This document shows, in pieces, positions 9,415 through 19,553 of a DNA stretch of 64,000 bases. Position 1 is the stretch's first letter. Each line of letters starts with the position of its first letter. The position numbers were made by a program, and so were the translations under genes. Under the pieces are notes generated by a model. The model did no database searches. It had not been told where the DNA came from and was given only the letters and a program-made list of their open reading frames with translations. The DNA comes from an uncultured SAR86 cluster bacterium (lineage in GTDB: Bacteria; Pseudomonadota; Gammaproteobacteria; Magnimaribacterales; D2472), in contig CABWZP010000001.1 of NCBI GenBank assembly GCA_902509965.1, positions 1 through 64,000 on the forward strand, read 5' to 3'.

Positions 9415-10770
9415 GTGAATATACATACTATTATTCTTGCAGCTGGGGCTGGCTCTAGAATGAAATCCAACCAAGCCAAAGTTCTTCAAAGAATTGGCGG
9501 CATGTCTATGTTGCAAAGAGTTTTGCAAACCACAACTAAACTCAACTCAAAATCAACCGTTGTTCTTGGTCACGATAAAGAAGGTGTCTTGCAACACCTT
9601 CAAGATATTGAAGGCAATATTTCTACAGCTATACAGGTCAATCAACTCGGCACTGCAGATGCTGTAAAAAGCGCCATGCATAATACAAAAAGCAGTGAAA
9701 CAATTCTGGTTCTCTATGGAGATGTTCCGCTTGTATCAGAAAAATCTCTTCAAGAACTTATTGATAAATCAGAAAATGGATTTTCAATTCTTACAACTCG
9801 CCTAGATGACCCTTTTGGGTATGGGAGGGTTATTACCGATGCTGATAATTTTGCTACAGCAATAGTTGAAGAAAAAGATGCATCAGAGGATGAAAAGCTA
9901 GTAAATGAAATTTTTACTGGAATTTTGTGCATAAGCCAAGAGCTTTTAGCTGCCGGGCTTCAAGAAATTACAAACGATAATGCGGCCAAAGAATTTTATT
10001 TAACCGACCTAGTTAAGATTATTTCTGCAAAAGGTATTAAAATAATACCTATTAGGGCAAATAATGATGAAGTAAGAGGGGCTAATAGTAAATCAGAGCT
10101 TGAAGCTTTAGAATCAATATTAAGAAATATGAACGCACAAGACTTATTAGACAAAGGTATAACGCTAGCTGACAAATCCAGAACAGATGTCAGAGGTAAT
10201 GTAGATGCGGGTAATGATTGCTCAATTGACGTTAATGTTATTCTTGAAGGAAGTATTAAGCTTGGTAATAGTGTTTCGATAGGGGCTAATAATTATTTAA
10301 AAGATGTCATTATTGGCGACAATACAACCATTGAGCCTTTTTCACACCTTTGTAATACAAGCGTGGGTTCAAATTGTAATGTTGGCCCTTATGCTCGTCT
10401 CAGAGAAGGCAGCACCATAGAAGATGGCGCAAAAGTTGGCAACTTTGTGGAAACTAAAAAAACAACTTTAGGTAAAGGAGCAAAGGCTAACCATTTCACA
10501 TATCTTGGCGATGCTGATATTGGAGAGAATACTAATATAGGCGCCGGAACCATTACATGTAATTATGATGGCACCAACAAACACCAAACAACCGTAGGCA
10601 GCGATAGCTTTATTGGCACTAATTCATCTTTGGTTGCACCAGTTGAGATTGGAAAAAATGCTTATGTTGGCGCAGGCTCAGTTATCACTAAAGATGTGCC
10701 AGATGATGCTCTTGCCGTTGGCAGAGGCAAACAAATTATCAAAGAAGATTGGTCTAAGGATAAGAAATAA
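9415..10770 (+). CDS. glmU: Bifunctional UDP-N-acetylglucosamine diphosphorylase / glucosamine-1-phosphate N-acetyltransferase (GTG start)
   Basis: ILAAGAGSRMKS nucleotidyltransferase motif; left-handed beta-helix C-terminus (GAGTITCNYDGTNKHQT). Confidence 0.97.
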   Translation: MNIHTIILAAGAGSRMKSNQAKVLQRIGGMSMLQRVLQTTTKLNSKSTVVLGHDKEGVLQHLQDIEGNISTAIQVNQLGTADAVKSAMHNTKSSETILVLYGDVPLVSEKSLQELIDKSENGFSILTTRLDDPFGYGRVITDADNFATAIVEEKDASEDEKLVNEIFTGILCISQELLAAGLQEITNDNAAKEFYLTDLVKIISAKGIKIIPIRANNDEVRGANSKSELEALESILRNMNAQDLLDKGITLADKSRTDVRGNVDAGNDCSIDVNVILEGSIKLGNSVSIGANNYLKDVIIGDNTTIEPFSHLCNTSVGSNCNVGPYARLREGSTIEDGAKVGNFVETKKTTLGKGAKANHFTYLGDADIGENTNIGAGTITCNYDGTNKHQTTVGSDSFIGTNSSLVAPVEIGKNAYVGAGSVITKDVPDDALAVGRGKQIIKEDWSKDKK

Positions 10771-12596
10771 TGTGTGGAATTATAGCAGCCGCATCAACAA
10801 GAAATGTTGGTAAGCTTTTAGTTCAAGGACTCCATAAAATGGAGTACCGAGGCTATGACTCTGCTGGAATAGCGCTCCATCAGCATGAATCAATAGCTCA
10901 CCTTAGAGCTCTTGGAAAAGTTCAGTTACTTGAAGACAAGATGGTTGCTGAAAAACCAAAGAGCAAATTAGGCATAGCTCATACAAGATGGGCTACCCAT
11001 GGTGAGCCATCAGAAGCAAATGCCCACCCTCATAAATCTAAAGACAGAGTTTATATTGTCCACAACGGCATTATTGAAAACTATATCGAATTAAGAGAAT
11101 CCTTAGTCAAGGATGGTTATGAATTCTCATCACAAACCGACTCAGAGCTTATAGCCCATTTGCTAGATTTATATCTCAATCAGGGCAATTGCATGATTGA
11201 TGCTATGTACTTAGCTAAAAAACAATTAGATGGAGCCTATGCTATTGCAGCTATAGATATTGAAAATGATGCAAGTTTAGTTGTAGCAAGAAATAAATCA
11301 CCTTTACTACTAGGCCTTGGCACAGATGAAATGCTTGCAGCATCTGATCCCCTGGCGATTGGTCAATTAACAAATGAGTTTATTTTTCTAGATGATGGCG
11401 ATGTAGCAGAAATATCAGCAGAGACTTATACAATTTTTGATGCAGATAAAAAAGAAGTTACCAGAGAAATCACTAATATTGATATCTCAAGCCAAGCAAC
11501 TTCAAAGGGCGAATTTAGACACTTCATGGAAAAAGAAATTTATGAGCAGCCAGAAGCTATTTTAAACACAATTAATGGCAGAGTGGGTGGAGACGATGTT
11601 CTTGATAATATTTTTGGTCTTGGCTCTACTGACTTATTTAAAAAAGTTAAACGTATTCAAATAGTAGCATGTGGCACTAGTTTGCATGCTGGCCGAGTAG
11701 CAGCCAGCTGGCTTTCATCCATTTCAGAACTTCCGTGTCAAATCGATTATGCAAGTGAGTATAGGTACAGAAATCCCCATGTTGACGAAAACTCTTTGCT
11801 AATTAATATTTCACAATCAGGTGAAACCGCAGATACTCTTGCAGCCCTAAGATATGCAAAAGAAAAAGATTATTTAGGCTCTGTTGGAATTTGCAATGTG
11901 CCAACAAGCTCCTTAGCAAGAGAGTCAGATTTTGTTTTATTTACCAATGCAGGCCCCGAGATTGGAGTTGCCTCTACTAAAGCATTTACTACTCAACTTG
12001 CCGGACTCATGCTCCTTGCATTATCTATAGCTAAAAGCAAAGGCGTAAATCCAAAACTTAGAACACGAGTAGTAACAGCACTAAGATCTTTGCCCGACAT
12101 TATTAATCAGACACTAGAGTTAAAAGACCAAATTTTAGAACTAGCACCTGCAATAGCAAGCAAGGACAATGCTTTATTTCTAGGCAGAGGAATTTTCTAT
12201 CCAATAGCAAAAGAGGGCGCCTTAAAGCTAAAAGAGATTTCATATATTCATGCCGAAGCCTACCCAGCAGGAGAACTTAAGCATGGACCATTAGCCCTTA
12301 TAGATGAAAAGATGCCAGTTATTGCATTAGCTCCAGAGAGTGAGATTGCAGAAAAGCTTGTATCTAACCTAGAAGAAGTAAAAGCCAGAGGCGGCACCCT
12401 ATATGTTTTTGCTGACCCATCTGTCACCATGGATGTTAATAATGGTGCTTTAGTTAGCATGCCTAAGTGCGATTTTCTATTAACACCTATTATTTATACT
12501 ATCCCCCTTCAACTTCTATCTTATGAAGTGGCTCTCTTAAGAGGAACGGACATTGACCAGCCAAGAAATCTAGCTAAGTCAGTCACAGTGGAGTAA
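10770..12596 (+). CDS. glmS: Glutamine-fructose-6-phosphate aminotransferase (isomerizing)
   Basis: MCGIIAA N-terminal GATase; two SIS domains; C-terminus DIDQPRNLAKSVTVE. Confidence 0.98.
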   Translation: MCGIIAAASTRNVGKLLVQGLHKMEYRGYDSAGIALHQHESIAHLRALGKVQLLEDKMVAEKPKSKLGIAHTRWATHGEPSEANAHPHKSKDRVYIVHNGIIENYIELRESLVKDGYEFSSQTDSELIAHLLDLYLNQGNCMIDAMYLAKKQLDGAYAIAAIDIENDASLVVARNKSPLLLGLGTDEMLAASDPLAIGQLTNEFIFLDDGDVAEISAETYTIFDADKKEVTREITNIDISSQATSKGEFRHFMEKEIYEQPEAILNTINGRVGGDDVLDNIFGLGSTDLFKKVKRIQIVACGTSLHAGRVAASWLSSISELPCQIDYASEYRYRNPHVDENSLLINISQSGETADTLAALRYAKEKDYLGSVGICNVPTSSLARESDFVLFTNAGPEIGVASTKAFTTQLAGLMLLALSIAKSKGVNPKLRTRVVTALRSLPDIINQTLELKDQILELAPAIASKDNALFLGRGIFYPIAKEGALKLKEISYIHAEAYPAGELKHGPLALIDEKMPVIALAPESEIAEKLVSNLEEVKARGGTLYVFADPSVTMDVNNGALVSMPKCDFLLTPIIYTIPLQLLSYEVALLRGTDIDQPRNLAKSVTVE

Positions 12597-12620
12597 GTTT
12601 GAAACGACTTTCGTTCAAAC
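12597..12620 (+). other. Hairpin immediately 3' of glmS, overlapping the left terminal repeat of cassette 1
   Basis: GTTTGAAaCGA-ctt-TCGTTCAAAC imperfect inverted repeat right after the glmS stop. Confidence 0.5.
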
Positions 12621-12795
12621 CTCGCATTCTGCCGGGGTTTTAAAAATCACTAAAAATAAATCCCTGTAAAAACTACCCTAAAATTTTCACCTATTTTTTC
12701 GTGTTAGCGGAAGTCATAAGGGATTGATATGACACGTTGCGGTCCTGTATGTATATTCATAGGACATTTATAAGGAGTTGTGGCAGAATTTATTA
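12600..12795 (+). repeat. Conserved left-end leader, copy 1
   Basis: About 195 nt (CATTCTGCCGGG...TCACTAAAA...AAAAACTACCCTAAAA...TTTCACCTATTTTTTCGT...TAGCGGAAGTCATAAGGG...ATATGAC...GTTGCGGTCC...ATAGGACATT) repeated at 13730-13928. Confidence 0.85.
12729..12773 (+). CDS. Conserved 14-aa micro-ORF MTRCGPVCIFIGHL in the leader (possible leader peptide or structured RNA)
   Basis: ATG...TAA with upstream AAGGGA; homologous micro-ORF MTCCGPLCVFIGHS at 13862-13906. Confidence 0.35.
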   Translation: MTRCGPVCIFIGHL

Positions 12796-13635
12796 ATGTC
12801 TAAAAATAAAACTCGATGGTACAAGCCAGTTCGAATTGGTTTGAGAAAAACCACCATATATATTGGTGATACCAAAGTTAAATTTTATAATGACAGAAAA
12901 ACATACAAAGAATATTTAGCCGATAGATTCAATCCTAATATCAATGATGGTAAACATTTTTTGGAACTCCACAAATATGTTAAAAATTATGTCTCCTTTG
13001 AGGGTATACCACTATTTGCTAATTTAGAAGCTGAAACATCAAAAATTGAGTTTCCAGAAATTTGGCGTACCAAAAAAAGTACCATAACAGGATTGGGTCG
13101 TGAGGTCTTTCCGAAGAATGTTGTTTATCTAAAATACTCAACTGAAAAACGTTATCTGCAACTAAAAAAAATACATAAACCAGAACTTCCTGTTGATTAT
13201 AAATTCCCAAAACATTTAGGTTGCAATGATCATTTATACAAAGACCTTAAAGAATATCATCCTGATGAAAGTAGAAAAGAAAAACGTTTAAGAATTAGAT
13301 CCTATGCAAAGAAACGAAGAGAAGAAAATAATATTTATATTACAAAAGAATATGGTTCTATAATTGCAGGAATAATATCCCTATCGATATCCCTATCGAT
13401 AACACTATTTGATGCTATAAAAACAATCATAGTTCTTGCCTTTAAGTTGCCTTTCTTTCCTTTCTGGCTACTAGGACTTTTTTATTGGAAATATCTTCGA
13501 GAGGTGACAGATGAGCTTGATTTGAAATATCAAAATGAGCTTGGATATTTTTTTATAGCAACTCTTGGAATTATACTTGTAGGCGGGTCAGTCGGTATTG
13601 TATTCGCTACTTTAGAAATATTAAGTTACTTATGA
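12796..13635 (+). CDS. Cassette C1 cargo: hypothetical protein with two C-terminal transmembrane segments
   Basis: Open frame of 279 aa from ATG 12796 (MSKNKTRWYKPVRIGLRKTTIYIGDTKVKF...), hydrophobic stretches near residues 190-220 and 250-275. Confidence 0.75.
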   Translation: MSKNKTRWYKPVRIGLRKTTIYIGDTKVKFYNDRKTYKEYLADRFNPNINDGKHFLELHKYVKNYVSFEGIPLFANLEAETSKIEFPEIWRTKKSTITGLGREVFPKNVVYLKYSTEKRYLQLKKIHKPELPVDYKFPKHLGCNDHLYKDLKEYHPDESRKEKRLRIRSYAKKRREENNIYITKEYGSIIAGIISLSISLSITLFDAIKTIIVLAFKLPFFPFWLLGLFYWKYLREVTDELDLKYQNELGYFFIATLGIILVGGSVGIVFATLEILSYL

Positions 13636-13711
13636 GTAATTCATGCAACCAAAACTCAACTCTTTCAAACACCACAGAAATAGCGGAGATAGAAAAGTCG
13701 TTTCGTACTAC
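13634..13711 (+). repeat. Conserved right-end segment, copy 1
   Basis: GAGTAATTCATGCAACCAAAACTCAA...TTTCAAAC..C.CAGAAATAGCGGAGATA..AAAGTCGTTTCGTACTA; near-identical segment at 14835-14912. Confidence 0.85.
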
Positions 13712-13729
13712 TCCGTCACGGTCGAGTAG
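13712..13729 (+). repeat. glmS-tail copy R1 (TCC GTC ACG GTC GAG TAG = SVTVE*)
   Basis: Same 5 aa plus stop as glmS end, different synonymous codons. Confidence 0.85.
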
Positions 13730-13928
13730 TTTCAAACTACTTTAGGTTTTAACCCCACATTCTGCCGGGATTTCAAGAATCACTAAAATTTAACCCCGGT
13801 AAAAACTACCCTAAAAATTTCACCTATTTTTTCGTAATAGCGGAAGTCATAAGGGGTGTATATGACTTGTTGCGGTCCCTTATGTGTATTTATAGGACAT
13901 TCATGATGAGTTATGGCAGAATAAATAT
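13730..13928 (+). repeat. Conserved left-end leader, copy 2
   Basis: Aligned by eye with 12600-12795 (see copy 1). Confidence 0.85.
13862..13906 (+). CDS. Conserved 14-aa micro-ORF MTCCGPLCVFIGHS in the leader
   Basis: ATG...TGA, preceded by AAGGGG; paralogous to 12729-12773. Confidence 0.35.
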   Translation: MTCCGPLCVFIGHS

Positions 13929-14300
13929 ATGAAAAATTTATTATTTATATTTGCTCTATGTTCGTTTTCATTGCTTTCTTTTGCTGAAGATAACCCAGAA
14001 GGTATTGCCTGCGCAATTTACGTTGACGATAAATCAAACACAAAAGAACAAATCTTAAGTATGGGATGTGAAAAAGGAGACCCTTTGTTATTTTATAACT
14101 ATGCAAATAAGGCAAAATGGAACTTAATGTATTCTTTAAGAATTTCAGCACTTTCAACTTGTGACATGACTCTTCCTATTACCGACAGTGGTGTAATAGG
14201 GGCGCAACCATATCAATCTATTTTTTGCACTTTTTCTGGTAAATTTAGAGATGTAAAGGCAGATCCTAAATATTTAAAGGGTTGGAATTGGAAACTGTAA
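13929..14300 (+). CDS. Cassette C2 cargo: small secreted hypothetical protein
   Basis: Signal-peptide-like MKNLLFIFALCSFSLLSFAED. Confidence 0.75.
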   Translation: MKNLLFIFALCSFSLLSFAEDNPEGIACAIYVDDKSNTKEQILSMGCEKGDPLLFYNYANKAKWNLMYSLRISALSTCDMTLPITDSGVIGAQPYQSIFCTFSGKFRDVKADPKYLKGWNWKL

Positions 14301-14798: not shown

Positions 14799-14834
14799 AT
14801 TAGTAAATTTTCTGATGGAACATTAGCAACTTGT

Positions 14835-14912
14835 GAGTTATTCATGCAACCAAACCTCAATACTTTCAAACTCCGCAGAAATAGTGGAGATAAGAAAGTC
14901 GTTTCGTACTAC
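14835..14912 (+). repeat. Conserved right-end segment, copy 2
   Basis: See 13634-13711. Confidence 0.85.
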
Positions 14913-14930
14913 TCCGTTACTGTAGAGTAA
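14913..14930 (+). repeat. glmS-tail copy R2 (TCC GTT ACT GTA GAG TAA = SVTVE*)
   Basis: Synonymous variant of the glmS end. Confidence 0.85.
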
Positions 14931-14961
14931 GTTTAAACAGTGATTTATAAAGGAGATAATT

Positions 14962-15336
14962 ATCAATATTAAAGAATCATTTATTTCAGTTTTTACTAAT
15001 TGGAAAAATTTTCATGGAAGAGCATGCAGAAGCGAGTATTGGTATTTTGTTCTTTCAGTGTCTCTAATTGCATTCGTATTGGGATTTGTAGAAGTATTTT
15101 TAGGAATATTTAATGAAGAAATTGGTTATGGACCATTTGCAGCATTATTTCAAATCATAACTTTTATTCCTAGCGTTTCAGTCACATCAAGAAGATTGCA
15201 AGACAGAAGCATTTCTGGTTGGTGGCAACTATCCTACATCACAATTGTTGGGATATTTGTAATTTTAATTTTACTAATGCTTCCAGCAAAAGAAGATGAA
15301 AATAAATGGGGAAGGAATCCACTTCTAGATATGTAA
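14962..15336 (+). CDS. DUF805 family membrane protein; start codon apparently ATC where the paralogue has ATG
   Basis: INIKESFISVFTNWKNFHGRACRSEYWYFVL...SVTSRRLQDRSISGWWQLSYI...PAKEDENKWGRNPL; closely similar to 17111-17488. ORF track only opens at 15058. Confidence 0.75.
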   Translation: MNIKESFISVFTNWKNFHGRACRSEYWYFVLSVSLIAFVLGFVEVFLGIFNEEIGYGPFAALFQIITFIPSVSVTSRRLQDRSISGWWQLSYITIVGIFVILILLMLPAKEDENKWGRNPLLDM

Positions 15337-15354
15337 ATCACTGTTTTGTTCAAG

Positions 15355-17078: not shown

Positions 17079-17110
17079 AACAAAACAGATAATTAAAAAG
17101 GAGAATTATT

Positions 17111-17488
17111 ATGAATATGAAAGAGGCAGTCGTTTCAGTTTTAACAAATTGGGACAATTTTAGTGGTAGAGCATGCAGAAGTGAGTATTGGTATTTTGTT
17201 TTAGCATCTATCTTGCTCTACACATTGGTTTTCTTTTTAGAGATTGCAACAGGCATAGTTGAAATTGAAAGTGATGAGATGGGCAAATTAAGTATAATTT
17301 CACAGTTAGTTTTAGCAATACCAACTTTTTCGGTTACCTCAAGACGACTTCAAGATAGGGGATACTCCGGTTGGTGGCAACTATCCTACCTAATCATCAT
17401 TGGTGTTTTTGTGATCCCTTTATTGTGTATATTTCCAGCAAAAGAAGATGAAAATAAATGGGGAAGGAACCCCCTTGTAGAAAATTAA
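17111..17488 (+). CDS. DUF805 family membrane protein
   Basis: NWDNFSGRACRSEYWYFVLAS...SVTSRRLQDRGYSGWWQLSYL; RBS AAAGGAG. Confidence 0.85.
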   Translation: MNMKEAVVSVLTNWDNFSGRACRSEYWYFVLASILLYTLVFFLEIATGIVEIESDEMGKLSIISQLVLAIPTFSVTSRRLQDRGYSGWWQLSYLIIIGVFVIPLLCIFPAKEDENKWGRNPLVEN

Positions 17489-17492
17489 ATCA

Positions 17493-17510
17493 CTGTTTAA
17501 ACTTAAACAG
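17493..17510 (+). repeat. Perfect short palindrome CTGTTTAA-ac-TTAAACAG at right end of C7
   Basis: 8-nt arms, 2-nt spacer, abutting copy R7. Confidence 0.7.
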
Positions 17511-17524
17511 TCACAGTAGAGTAG
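17507..17524 (+). repeat. glmS-tail copy R7 (ACA GTC ACA GTA GAG TAG = TVTVE*)
   Basis: One S-to-T replacement, otherwise same tail. Confidence 0.75.
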
Positions 17525-17537
17525 TTTATGATTCGTA

Positions 17538-17918
17538 TTGATAAAAAGTAAAATGGATTATTGGTTTCTGATGATTGCGGCCTTCCTTTCTCTGGCAGGA
17601 ATGTTGTTTCATGGGTTCATCGGGGGAAAAATTTATATTAGCAATGTAAATGATAGCGATATGGAGGCATTAACAAAATCGTTAAGCATTGTTTCTTGGC
17701 ACGTGTTCACCATCTTTCTTTTTATAAGTGCTTTAACTTTAATTTATATAGCCTATAACCCAGAATTTGCTATAGCTGCATATCCGGTAATTGGCATTAA
17801 CCTTTTAGGCTCACTTTTATTTATTTTTCTTAGTTTGGGAAGACATAGAGCTTTATTAAGAATGCCAGGTGCTCTTCTAATGGGTATTACGGCATTGCTT
17901 GCTTGGCTGGGAATATGA
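17538..17918 (+). CDS. Cassette C8 cargo: multi-TM hypothetical membrane protein
   Basis: 126 aa, about 4 hydrophobic segments. Confidence 0.7.
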   Translation: MIKSKMDYWFLMIAAFLSLAGMLFHGFIGGKIYISNVNDSDMEALTKSLSIVSWHVFTIFLFISALTLIYIAYNPEFAIAAYPVIGINLLGSLLFIFLSLGRHRALLRMPGALLMGITALLAWLGI

Positions 17919-17974
17919 TAGAGCTCAAAGGGTTATATCTATTGGAAAATCCCCCAATACGAATTATAAACAAC

Positions 17975-17992
17975 TCCGTAACGGTCGAATGA
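17975..17992 (+). repeat. glmS-tail copy R8 (TCC GTA ACG GTC GAA TGA = SVTVE*)
   Basis: Synonymous variant with TGA stop. Confidence 0.8.
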
Positions 17993-18018
17993 TCGACGGC
18001 GCACTAGGGAGTTGACGT

Positions 18019-18822
18019 CTGTTTAAGCACATTCACATTGTTGCCTGCTCGCCGCGATCCGGTACTACTCTCTTGCACGAGGCGATGGTCACCTGTTTTC
18101 GGACAAACAAGCATTATGACCATGAGATTCGCTTTCACCTCGTAACCGCAAAAAACAACGATGTGGTTATCACGAAACGACCCAAAGATACGTTGTACAT
18201 GCCAGGAGTCATCGACGATCCTAATCTCTATGTCATTTACGTAACGCGCGATCCGCGTGATGTCATCGTTAGCCGGCACGGTAAGAGCGAGGATATGTAC
18301 TACTCGAACATTAGGCTTTGGCGTGAATTGCATGCCTGTGCACGCTCATTGTTCGGCCACGATCGTTTTCTCAATATCCGGTACGAGGATTTCGTAAATA
18401 ACCCTGACGCCACACAAAGCCAAATCACTGCAAAATTTCCATGGCTTGAGAAACAACACAAATTTTCTGAGTACCATGAACACGCGCAAGTGTCTGAAAA
18501 GTCAAAGGTTGCAATGCGTGGCGTCCGTCCTATTGGACCGACCAGTGTCGGTGTCTGGCGAAAACATCTCGGTCGCATCGTTCAACAGCAGGCAATCCAC
18601 GGCACAATGACACCAGATCTGGTCGGTTGTGGATACGAATCATCGCCGGATTGGGAAGTTGTTCTGGACGGCATTTTACCGGATAAATCTAACAGTTGGT
18701 ATCCGGAGAAAAAACGTTTTTGGCAGAGAATTTCGCAATCCATTGATGCTTCGAGAAAAATAGCTATCTATCGGCGCAAGAAAGGACTTAGTCGAATCAG
18801 CAGAGCAACCAATGATCGTTAG
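18019..18822 (+). CDS. P-loop sulfotransferase family protein, start codon unclear (frame open from 18016)
   Basis: HIHIVACSPRSGTTLLHEAMVTC 5'-PSB-like motif lies upstream of the ORF-track start at 18073; YVIYVTRDPRDVIVSRHG is a 3'-PB-like motif. Confidence 0.8.
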   Translation: MFKHIHIVACSPRSGTTLLHEAMVTCFRTNKHYDHEIRFHLVTAKNNDVVITKRPKDTLYMPGVIDDPNLYVIYVTRDPRDVIVSRHGKSEDMYYSNIRLWRELHACARSLFGHDRFLNIRYEDFVNNPDATQSQITAKFPWLEKQHKFSEYHEHAQVSEKSKVAMRGVRPIGPTSVGVWRKHLGRIVQQQAIHGTMTPDLVGCGYESSPDWEVVLDGILPDKSNSWYPEKKRFWQRISQSIDASRKIAIYRRKKGLSRISRATNDR

Positions 18823-19510
18823 CCATGCAAAGAAGTTTATTTTCGTAAAGACCCGTAAAACCTCGGGCACAAGCATGGAGGTTAGTCTGAGCCAAGTCTG
18901 TGGTCCCGATGACATCATCACTCCGATATCGTTTGAAGACGAACTCGTCAGGCTGGACATGGGCGGCACGTTACCTCAGAACTACGCTGGTCTTGGAGAG
19001 CAGCGATATCGCGATATGATAAAGGCACGCAAGATGAAATTTTTACGCGCCAGACGCCGTGGCAAGTGTTTCAATCATATGCCGGCTGTTGCGATTCGCG
19101 AGTACGTCGGCAAAAAAACTTACGATGATTACTTCACTTTTTCGATCGAAAGGCATCCGTACGAAAAGGTTGTATCACATATCTATTATCATACGCGCGG
19201 AAAAAAGAACTGGAGTTTTGACAAGGAGCTTGAGCGTGTCCTGAAGAAGAAGCATTACGTCAGTTACCCAATCTATTCAGACGGTGAAAAACCTATTGTC
19301 GATTTCATTGTCAATTTTGACAATATGCAGGAAGACCTCACGACCCTCGGCGACAGGCTTGAATTTGATATTGTCGCGCACTATCCACAAACCAAACACG
19401 AATTCCGAACTAACAGAAGGCCTGCATCCGAGCTGTTGTCGCAGAAAGTAAAGGACCAAATATATAAGAACTGCAGGATCGAGTTCGATGCAATGGGTTA
19501 CGAGCGTTAG
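18812..19510 (+). CDS. Sulfotransferase family 2-like protein
   Basis: KKFIFVKTRKTSGTSMEVSLS P-loop-like motif; FTFSIERHPYEKVVSHIYY. Confidence 0.75.
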   Translation: MIVSHAKKFIFVKTRKTSGTSMEVSLSQVCGPDDIITPISFEDELVRLDMGGTLPQNYAGLGEQRYRDMIKARKMKFLRARRRGKCFNHMPAVAIREYVGKKTYDDYFTFSIERHPYEKVVSHIYYHTRGKKNWSFDKELERVLKKKHYVSYPIYSDGEKPIVDFIVNFDNMQEDLTTLGDRLEFDIVAHYPQTKHEFRTNRRPASELLSQKVKDQIYKNCRIEFDAMGYER

Positions 19511-19535
19511 CATGATCACGACACGACGAAAACAA

Positions 19536-19553
19536 TCCGTCACTGTGGAGTAG
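19536..19553 (+). repeat. glmS-tail copy R9 (TCC GTC ACT GTG GAG TAG = SVTVE*)
   Basis: Synonymous variant; followed by left-end consensus ATTTGAACAGTGATTTAA. Confidence 0.85.

Follow-up and report, generated by a model that had tools for sequence, protein, structure and literature searches.

The complementary ends of the gene cassettes that follow glmS in SAR86 genomes are very probably two inverted attP half-sites for large serine integrases, carried by cassettes that are themselves non-autonomous. The complementarity of the unit ends is real and was confirmed in SAR86 arrays. We favour the attP half-site reading because the crossover coincides with the dyad centre, no target site is duplicated, wobble mismatches show no bias, and elements encoding large serine recombinases (LSRs) with like ends are found at glmS. 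The window, the whole stretch of SAR86 DNA that was analysed, comprises 64,000 nucleotides.

In the window, glmS occupies positions 10770-12596 on the + strand and ends ...NLAKSVTVE, and units C1 to C9 form a cassette array that begins within its final codons. A copy of the SVTVE-stop 3' end of glmS stands at each unit boundary, and the boundary motif GTNACNGTNGARTAR corresponds to the codons VTVE-stop that terminate the gene. The exact motif occurs nine times genome-wide, always on the + strand and always in the glmS array; a fuzzy scan for the core added a tenth boundary. Core 0, GTCACAGTGGAGTAA, lies at the glmS/C1 boundary (12582-12596), and further motif matches lie at C1/C2 (13715-13729), C2/C3 (14916-14930), C3/C4 (15358-15372), C5/C6 (16891-16905), C6/C7 (17064-17078), C7/C8 (17510-17524), C8/C9 (17978-17992) and the end of C9 (19539-19553). 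The tenth, the degenerate core GCAACTGTAGAATAG at C4/C5 (15787-15801), also on the + strand, carries a single mismatch. The C5/C6 core also forms the final codons of the C5 ORF (15808-16905, 365 aa), which runs on into the core and terminates ...FGYGYSVTVE-stop, as happens in a few other units. C1 and C2 have in common a left end of 220 nt (12582-12798 and 13715-13931) and a right end of 110 nt (13628-13737 and 14829-14938), at 80-85% identity, and their genes differ; the sequences look as if cargo had been exchanged between common ends.

Most SAR86 genomes contain glmS-adjoining arrays of the same type. The 132 unique loci, all at glmS, hold 0 to 9 units apiece, and no such arrays were found among some 365 other Gammaproteobacteria sampled. 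Cores lay on the glmS strand 482 times and on the opposite strand 5 times, and 375 of 457 cores still encode VTVE-stop, with synonymous positions varying freely. Units are mostly single-gene, lack a recombinase and have a median length of about 650 bp; the unit set was limited to 4.5 kb, by which the LSR-encoding unit of locus L144 was at first left out. Cargo includes restriction-modification enzymes and methionine sulfoxide reductases, among others, and on reading of the sequences probably also sulfotransferase-like proteins. In the window, the cargo ORF of C8 (17538-17918, + strand) encodes a membrane-type protein of 126 aa, and other SAR86 genomes contain the unit at 94.6-97.5% identity. 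The C9 cargo (17993-19538, + strand) consists of two ORFs (18073-18822 and 18812-19510) that appear sulfotransferase-like from the reading of the sequence and not from a scan result, and its ends are unpaired. This unit is found in about 11 other arrays, with a constant right end CGACACGACGAAAACAATCC and no paired arms.

Paired ends are best seen in C8. Its left arm GTTTATGATTCGTATTG (17524-17540) and right arm CAATACGAATTATAAAC (17955-17971), both given on the + strand and both putative attP half-sites, are complementary at 16 of 17 positions in a core-centred register, as the original prediction had it, and the pair lengthens to 17519-17540 and 17955-17976 (22 nt, 91%). In another SAR86 family the unit is present at 97.5% identity with one arm mismatch fewer, and pairing is perfect in the homologous unit L266_0. 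The 11-mers predicted for C1 (12601-12611 and 13694-13704) and the 13-mers predicted for C3 (AAACAGTGATTTA at 14935-14947, and 15334-15346) were likewise found, all read on the + strand and each pair perfectly complementary; the left arm of C1 is one base out of register relative to its right arm, and that of C3 belongs to the largest arm family. Re-examination also agreed that C2 and C7 are imperfect and that C5, C6 and C9 have no paired ends. By end comparison the left arm of C7, AAAACAGATAATTAA (17082-17096, + strand), is imperfect; its right arm, TAAATCACTGTTTAAAC (17486-17502, + strand), is the perfect complement of the C3 left arm region at 14931-14947.

We scored pairing by aligning the left end with the reverse complement of the right end in one register, fixed on the core centre, and counting matches over 18 positions. 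For 235 units from 98 arrays the mean was 10.5 of 18, against 6.97 ± 0.15 with permuted left-right partners (z = 22.8). Moving the register by one base cut the score by half, to 5.5-5.7, so that the excess exists only in register 0. The comparison with shuffled ends that had been named as a test of the prediction was repeated with 271 dereplicated units from 132 arrays and again placed left-right complementarity far above permuted partners (10.18 vs 6.80 ± 0.14; maximum of 5000 permutations at most 7.29). The excess spans about +11 to +29 bases from the crossover centre. The distribution is bimodal, with 177 of 327 units pairing at 11 or more of 18 positions and the remainder close to background. 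About 46% of units lack the dyad; many of these start with GAATAA or GAATGA and have a second set of right ends.

The point of exchange was mapped by linkage across 457 junctions. Junctions with a common upstream unit agreed at N3 of the core GTNACN with a frequency of 0.85 (unrelated pairs, 0.27) and not at N6 (0.31 vs 0.33), and those with a common downstream unit agreed at N6 (0.59), N9 (0.70) and R12 (0.95) and not at N3 (0.29). Since N3 tracks the upstream unit and N6 the downstream unit, exchange takes place within A4-C5, which is the dyad centre; in the window the last codons of glmS are thus the receiving attachment site, with exchange at the AC of 12585-12586. A 10.5-kb LSR element inserted at glmS in three hosts gave the same point: host DNA continues through N3 and the element from AC onward, and at its other end the element continues through AC with target DNA beyond. 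By both lines of evidence the overlap is two bases long and central in the att site, as in large serine integrase att systems. Adjacent cores were identical in only 2 of 326 pairs, and core halves travel with the units; target-site duplication is therefore excluded. Inverted ends between flanking target repeats superficially suggest a DDE-type or Cas1-type transposon with terminal inverted repeats, aimed at glmS and duplicating it, but the flanking repeats are not duplications, and the units of the 25 commonest families listed contain no recombinase of another kind. We give such a transposon practically no credence.

Nearly all SAR86 genomes encode only two tyrosine recombinases, both of XerC/XerD size and neither at glmS. 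Their being the only kind in nearly all genomes would favour an Xer-like enzyme or phage integrase as the mover. However, the 6-8 bp overlap of such an enzyme must take in N3 or N6, two freely varying positions that end up on opposite sides of the exchange, and what is found near glmS is LSRs and no extra tyrosine integrases. A tyrosine recombinase is thus a highly improbable mover. No IntI-type integrase was found beside glmS. An IS110 or bridge-RNA recombinase was also considered and rejected, as the IS110 DEDD domain (PF02371) was absent from all 61 genomes searched, with control genomes positive.

In 61 genomes, a search with PF00239 returned two full serine recombinases (G009 and G015), both away from glmS. 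A PF07508 search of 203 SAR86 genomes gave matches within glmS arrays. A complete LSR lay inside the array of one of the 203 (L144), and further LSR elements at glmS were present in marine contigs. The first unit of L144 (6,047 bp) has paired ends and encodes a 551-aa LSR, a G2P-like Rep and an 84-aa protein. The LSR carries the expected set of domains, Resolvase (6e-24), Recombinase (1e-11) and zinc ribbon (3e-4), the last scoring 21.7 bits, below the Pfam curated cut-off of 25.3. A second LSR located at glmS in marine contigs (L302, L310 and L312) is 39% identical to the first, with element ends that match at 19 of 24 positions, and on L312 a SAR86-type cassette end comes after this element.

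Searches by att pattern and by protein gave little beyond these loci. An attP-like pattern had no match in viral contigs, and looser patterns gave mostly chance-like matches, one of which (L297) pointed to the second LSR element. As a single query the 551-aa LSR matched nothing in viral contigs and, in a search of 350 genomes of the class run without a positive control, nothing at E ≤ 1e-40; an alignment of two LSR sequences found five loci. Two further LSRs of SAR86, not located at glmS, are far more distant in sequence (L276:9136-10713 and L277:322-1881; 525 and 519 aa). They end ...VELRGIEPRTPCLQSRCSPS and ...VELGGIEPPTSCVPRKRSPS, which we read as running into a putative tRNA gene, and they look unrelated to the glmS system. 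A third LSR contig, L314, has cores at 9729-9743 and 11629-11643 with the same following sequence inverted, 1.9 kb apart around the LSR; an inversion or a faulty assembly may explain this. Eight viral contigs (L286-L293) contain the motif ACTCCGTCACGGTAGAGTAG in an identical and non-palindromic context.

A small protein of 84-153 aa, with a weak PF07508 recombinase-type DNA-binding domain and no catalytic domain, is encoded in about 17 arrays (among them L047, L057, L077, L040, L174, L178, L208, L207, L264, L155 and L183), usually in the unit nearest glmS, and also in the two LSR elements at glmS (L144:11913-12167 and L297:13544-13939). Profile comparison with LSRs gave a weak resemblance. A fold search gave no significant match, with Bxb1 LSR chains among those listed. 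The protein may be an accessory or directionality factor.

The sequences of the arms differ between units while their pairing is kept, as predicted: the 135 dereplicated paired units formed 25 families by arm sequence, of which the largest numbered 64. A left-right covariation analysis, the other check named in advance, was made with units carrying AACAG in both arms (n = 56), a set not chosen for pairing and in which relatedness was only partly removed; five further positions covaried (p = 0.0002 each). Homologous cassettes differed by two-sided changes at two positions (L140_0 vs L154_0), eight (L041_0 vs L154_0) and one (L047_0 vs L077_0), and such concerted changes were seen between cassettes 91% identical. 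A change of helper integrase might lie behind them, or correction by template switching while the cassette is circular. Within families, arm sequences such as TTTGGTTGTACC and AACAG are kept across units with unrelated interiors, and 45 pairs of cassettes with unrelated flanks belong to common arm families. Asymmetric mismatches are kept as well: most members of one family have ACCAG on the left and ACCTG on the right. A strand bias of G.T wobble mismatches, considered as a sign of single-strand folding when 98 arrays were available (47 vs 27), vanished at 132 arrays (48 vs 34, p = 0.19).

These data bear on the interpretation given with the original prediction, that structure rather than sequence is selected. 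By that account the arms would fold as a single-strand hairpin or cruciform read by shape, like attC by the integron integrase, and complementarity maintained across 25 families, with both arms shifting together in related cassettes, would agree with it. Selection on base pairing, however, would let mismatches drift and be repaired and would favour wobbles on the folded strand; instead, arm sequences and asymmetric mismatches are conserved among unrelated cassettes, and wobbles show no strand bias. Moreover, the crossover at the dyad centre would fall in the hairpin loop, whereas the folded site of an integron lies at one cassette end, and LSRs with such ends are present at glmS. The pairing is real and family-specific, and the arms do change together, but structure as the selected property is very unlikely. 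Given that arm sequences and asymmetric mismatches are kept among unrelated cassettes and that wobbles are unbiased, we take the arms to be inverted half-sites for protein binding. Mutation might still have produced part of the symmetry, if template switching in circular cassettes perfects quasi-palindromes; this is compatible with attP half-sites and would account for concerted changes in closely related cassettes. However, pairing breaks off equally far out (about +29) in units that are unrelated, and conserved asymmetric mismatches stay uncorrected, so we consider this contribution unlikely.

A link between enzyme and arms was provided by the integrase-less cassette L251_1 and the L144 element, which come from separate genomes and have 17 of 17 identical bases in each arm, a G/A difference between their left and right arms included. 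By BLAST, the DNA common to both is confined to the outer 31 and 42 bp, and the interiors are unrelated. In a solved complex of a serine integrase with attP (PMC3783163), the half-site measures 25 bp, of which positions 16-24 are read by the zinc-ribbon domain. The SAR86 unit ends form dyad-symmetric half-sites of about 25 bp, as in that complex, and the covarying arms span its zinc-ribbon positions, 16-24 (PMC3783163).

Under the attP half-site reading, a free circular cassette would present, in order, right arm, core half, AC, core half and left arm. An LSR dimer would bind this symmetric site and recombine it, at the central AC, with the 3' end of glmS. The incoming unit would thereby be placed beside glmS, and its own core half would restore SVTVE-stop. 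All units would have the inner half-site in common; farther out, at about +12 to +26 from the crossover, the sequence would vary by family because, we propose, each helper integrase reads its own motif, presumably through the zinc ribbon. Helper LSR elements would mobilise the cassettes in trans. Since only one of 203 genomes has a complete LSR in its array, helpers should be rare or transient. That rarity counts against the attP half-site reading, as do the dyad-less units and the low zinc-ribbon score. That integrases with different outer motifs would all have to use one glmS half-site also counts against it. In large serine integrase systems the zinc-ribbon motif lies 5 bp further inward in attB than in attP; viewed by eye, the glmS half-site does not seem to hold an inward-shifted copy of the L144 arm motif.

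SAR86 is among the most abundant surface-ocean lineages and has small genomes, and to our knowledge it is not known for gene-capture systems. We found no published account of SAR86 or glmS arrays, or of serine-integrase cassette arrays, in the literature covered, which left out most subscription papers. The arrays give SAR86 a standing intake of foreign genes, restriction-modification genes included, and the arms would serve as a bar code of which helper moved which cassette. An integron-like layout with serine integrases and many arm specificities at one target could supply new integrase/att pairs.

Among known systems, Tn7 and its relatives at attTn7 also use the conserved glmS 3' end as a safe insertion site. 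Tn7 goes in beyond the glmS stop and leaves a short duplication; in SAR86, exchange falls within the Thr codon of SVTVE, leaves no duplication and involves a serine recombinase. Streamlined ocean bacteria also carry tycheposons and other tRNA-end elements, small and with or without an integrase, at gene ends, but these use tRNA genes and tyrosine recombinases in place of glmS and a serine recombinase. With the phage LSRs of A118, Bxb1 and phiC31 the SAR86 enzymes share Resolvase, Recombinase and zinc-ribbon domains, half-sites of about 25 bp and a two-base overlap at the dyad centre. Unlike in those phages, many integrase-less cassettes with common attP half-sites pile up in arrays, and identity to solved LSRs is low.

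Tandem and recombinase-less forms of SCC are known. In SCC a Ccr-type large serine recombinase directs insertion at a conserved gene 3' end whose sequence is restored, with a dyad-symmetric att site of about 50 bp and variable cargo (PMC6222049). SCCmec and the enterococcal ECC (Ccr, rlmH 3' end) thus resemble the SAR86 arrays in having an LSR, a restored gene end, a dyad att site and variable cargo, although, for the LSR, the likeness is one of enzyme class. The SAR86 arrays differ in that all lie at glmS and none at rlmH, in their mostly single-gene, recombinase-less cassettes of about 650 bp in ordered arrays, in about 25 arm families at one site, in a Gram-negative marine host, and in the glmS-proximal PF07508-like protein.

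Integrons (IntI, attI x attC) likewise have ordered, one-orientation arrays of promoterless-size cassettes at one receiving site, new units beside the anchor, unit-specific palindromic sites, and defence and accessory cargo. In SAR86, unlike in integrons, the crossover is the palindrome centre, so that the dyad spans both cassette ends and no attC-like folded site lies wholly at one; the recombinase is a serine and not a tyrosine enzyme; the array is anchored on the end of a housekeeping gene; and nearly all genomes have no integrase gene beside that anchor. We put about even weight on a fuller proposal, that SAR86 has a serine-recombinase counterpart of the integron in which integrase-less cassettes with attP half-sites tuned to many helpers are ordered at the glmS end in most members, the small recombinase-domain protein being part of the machinery. 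The SAR86 system likely joins SCC-like enzyme chemistry to an integron-like layout.
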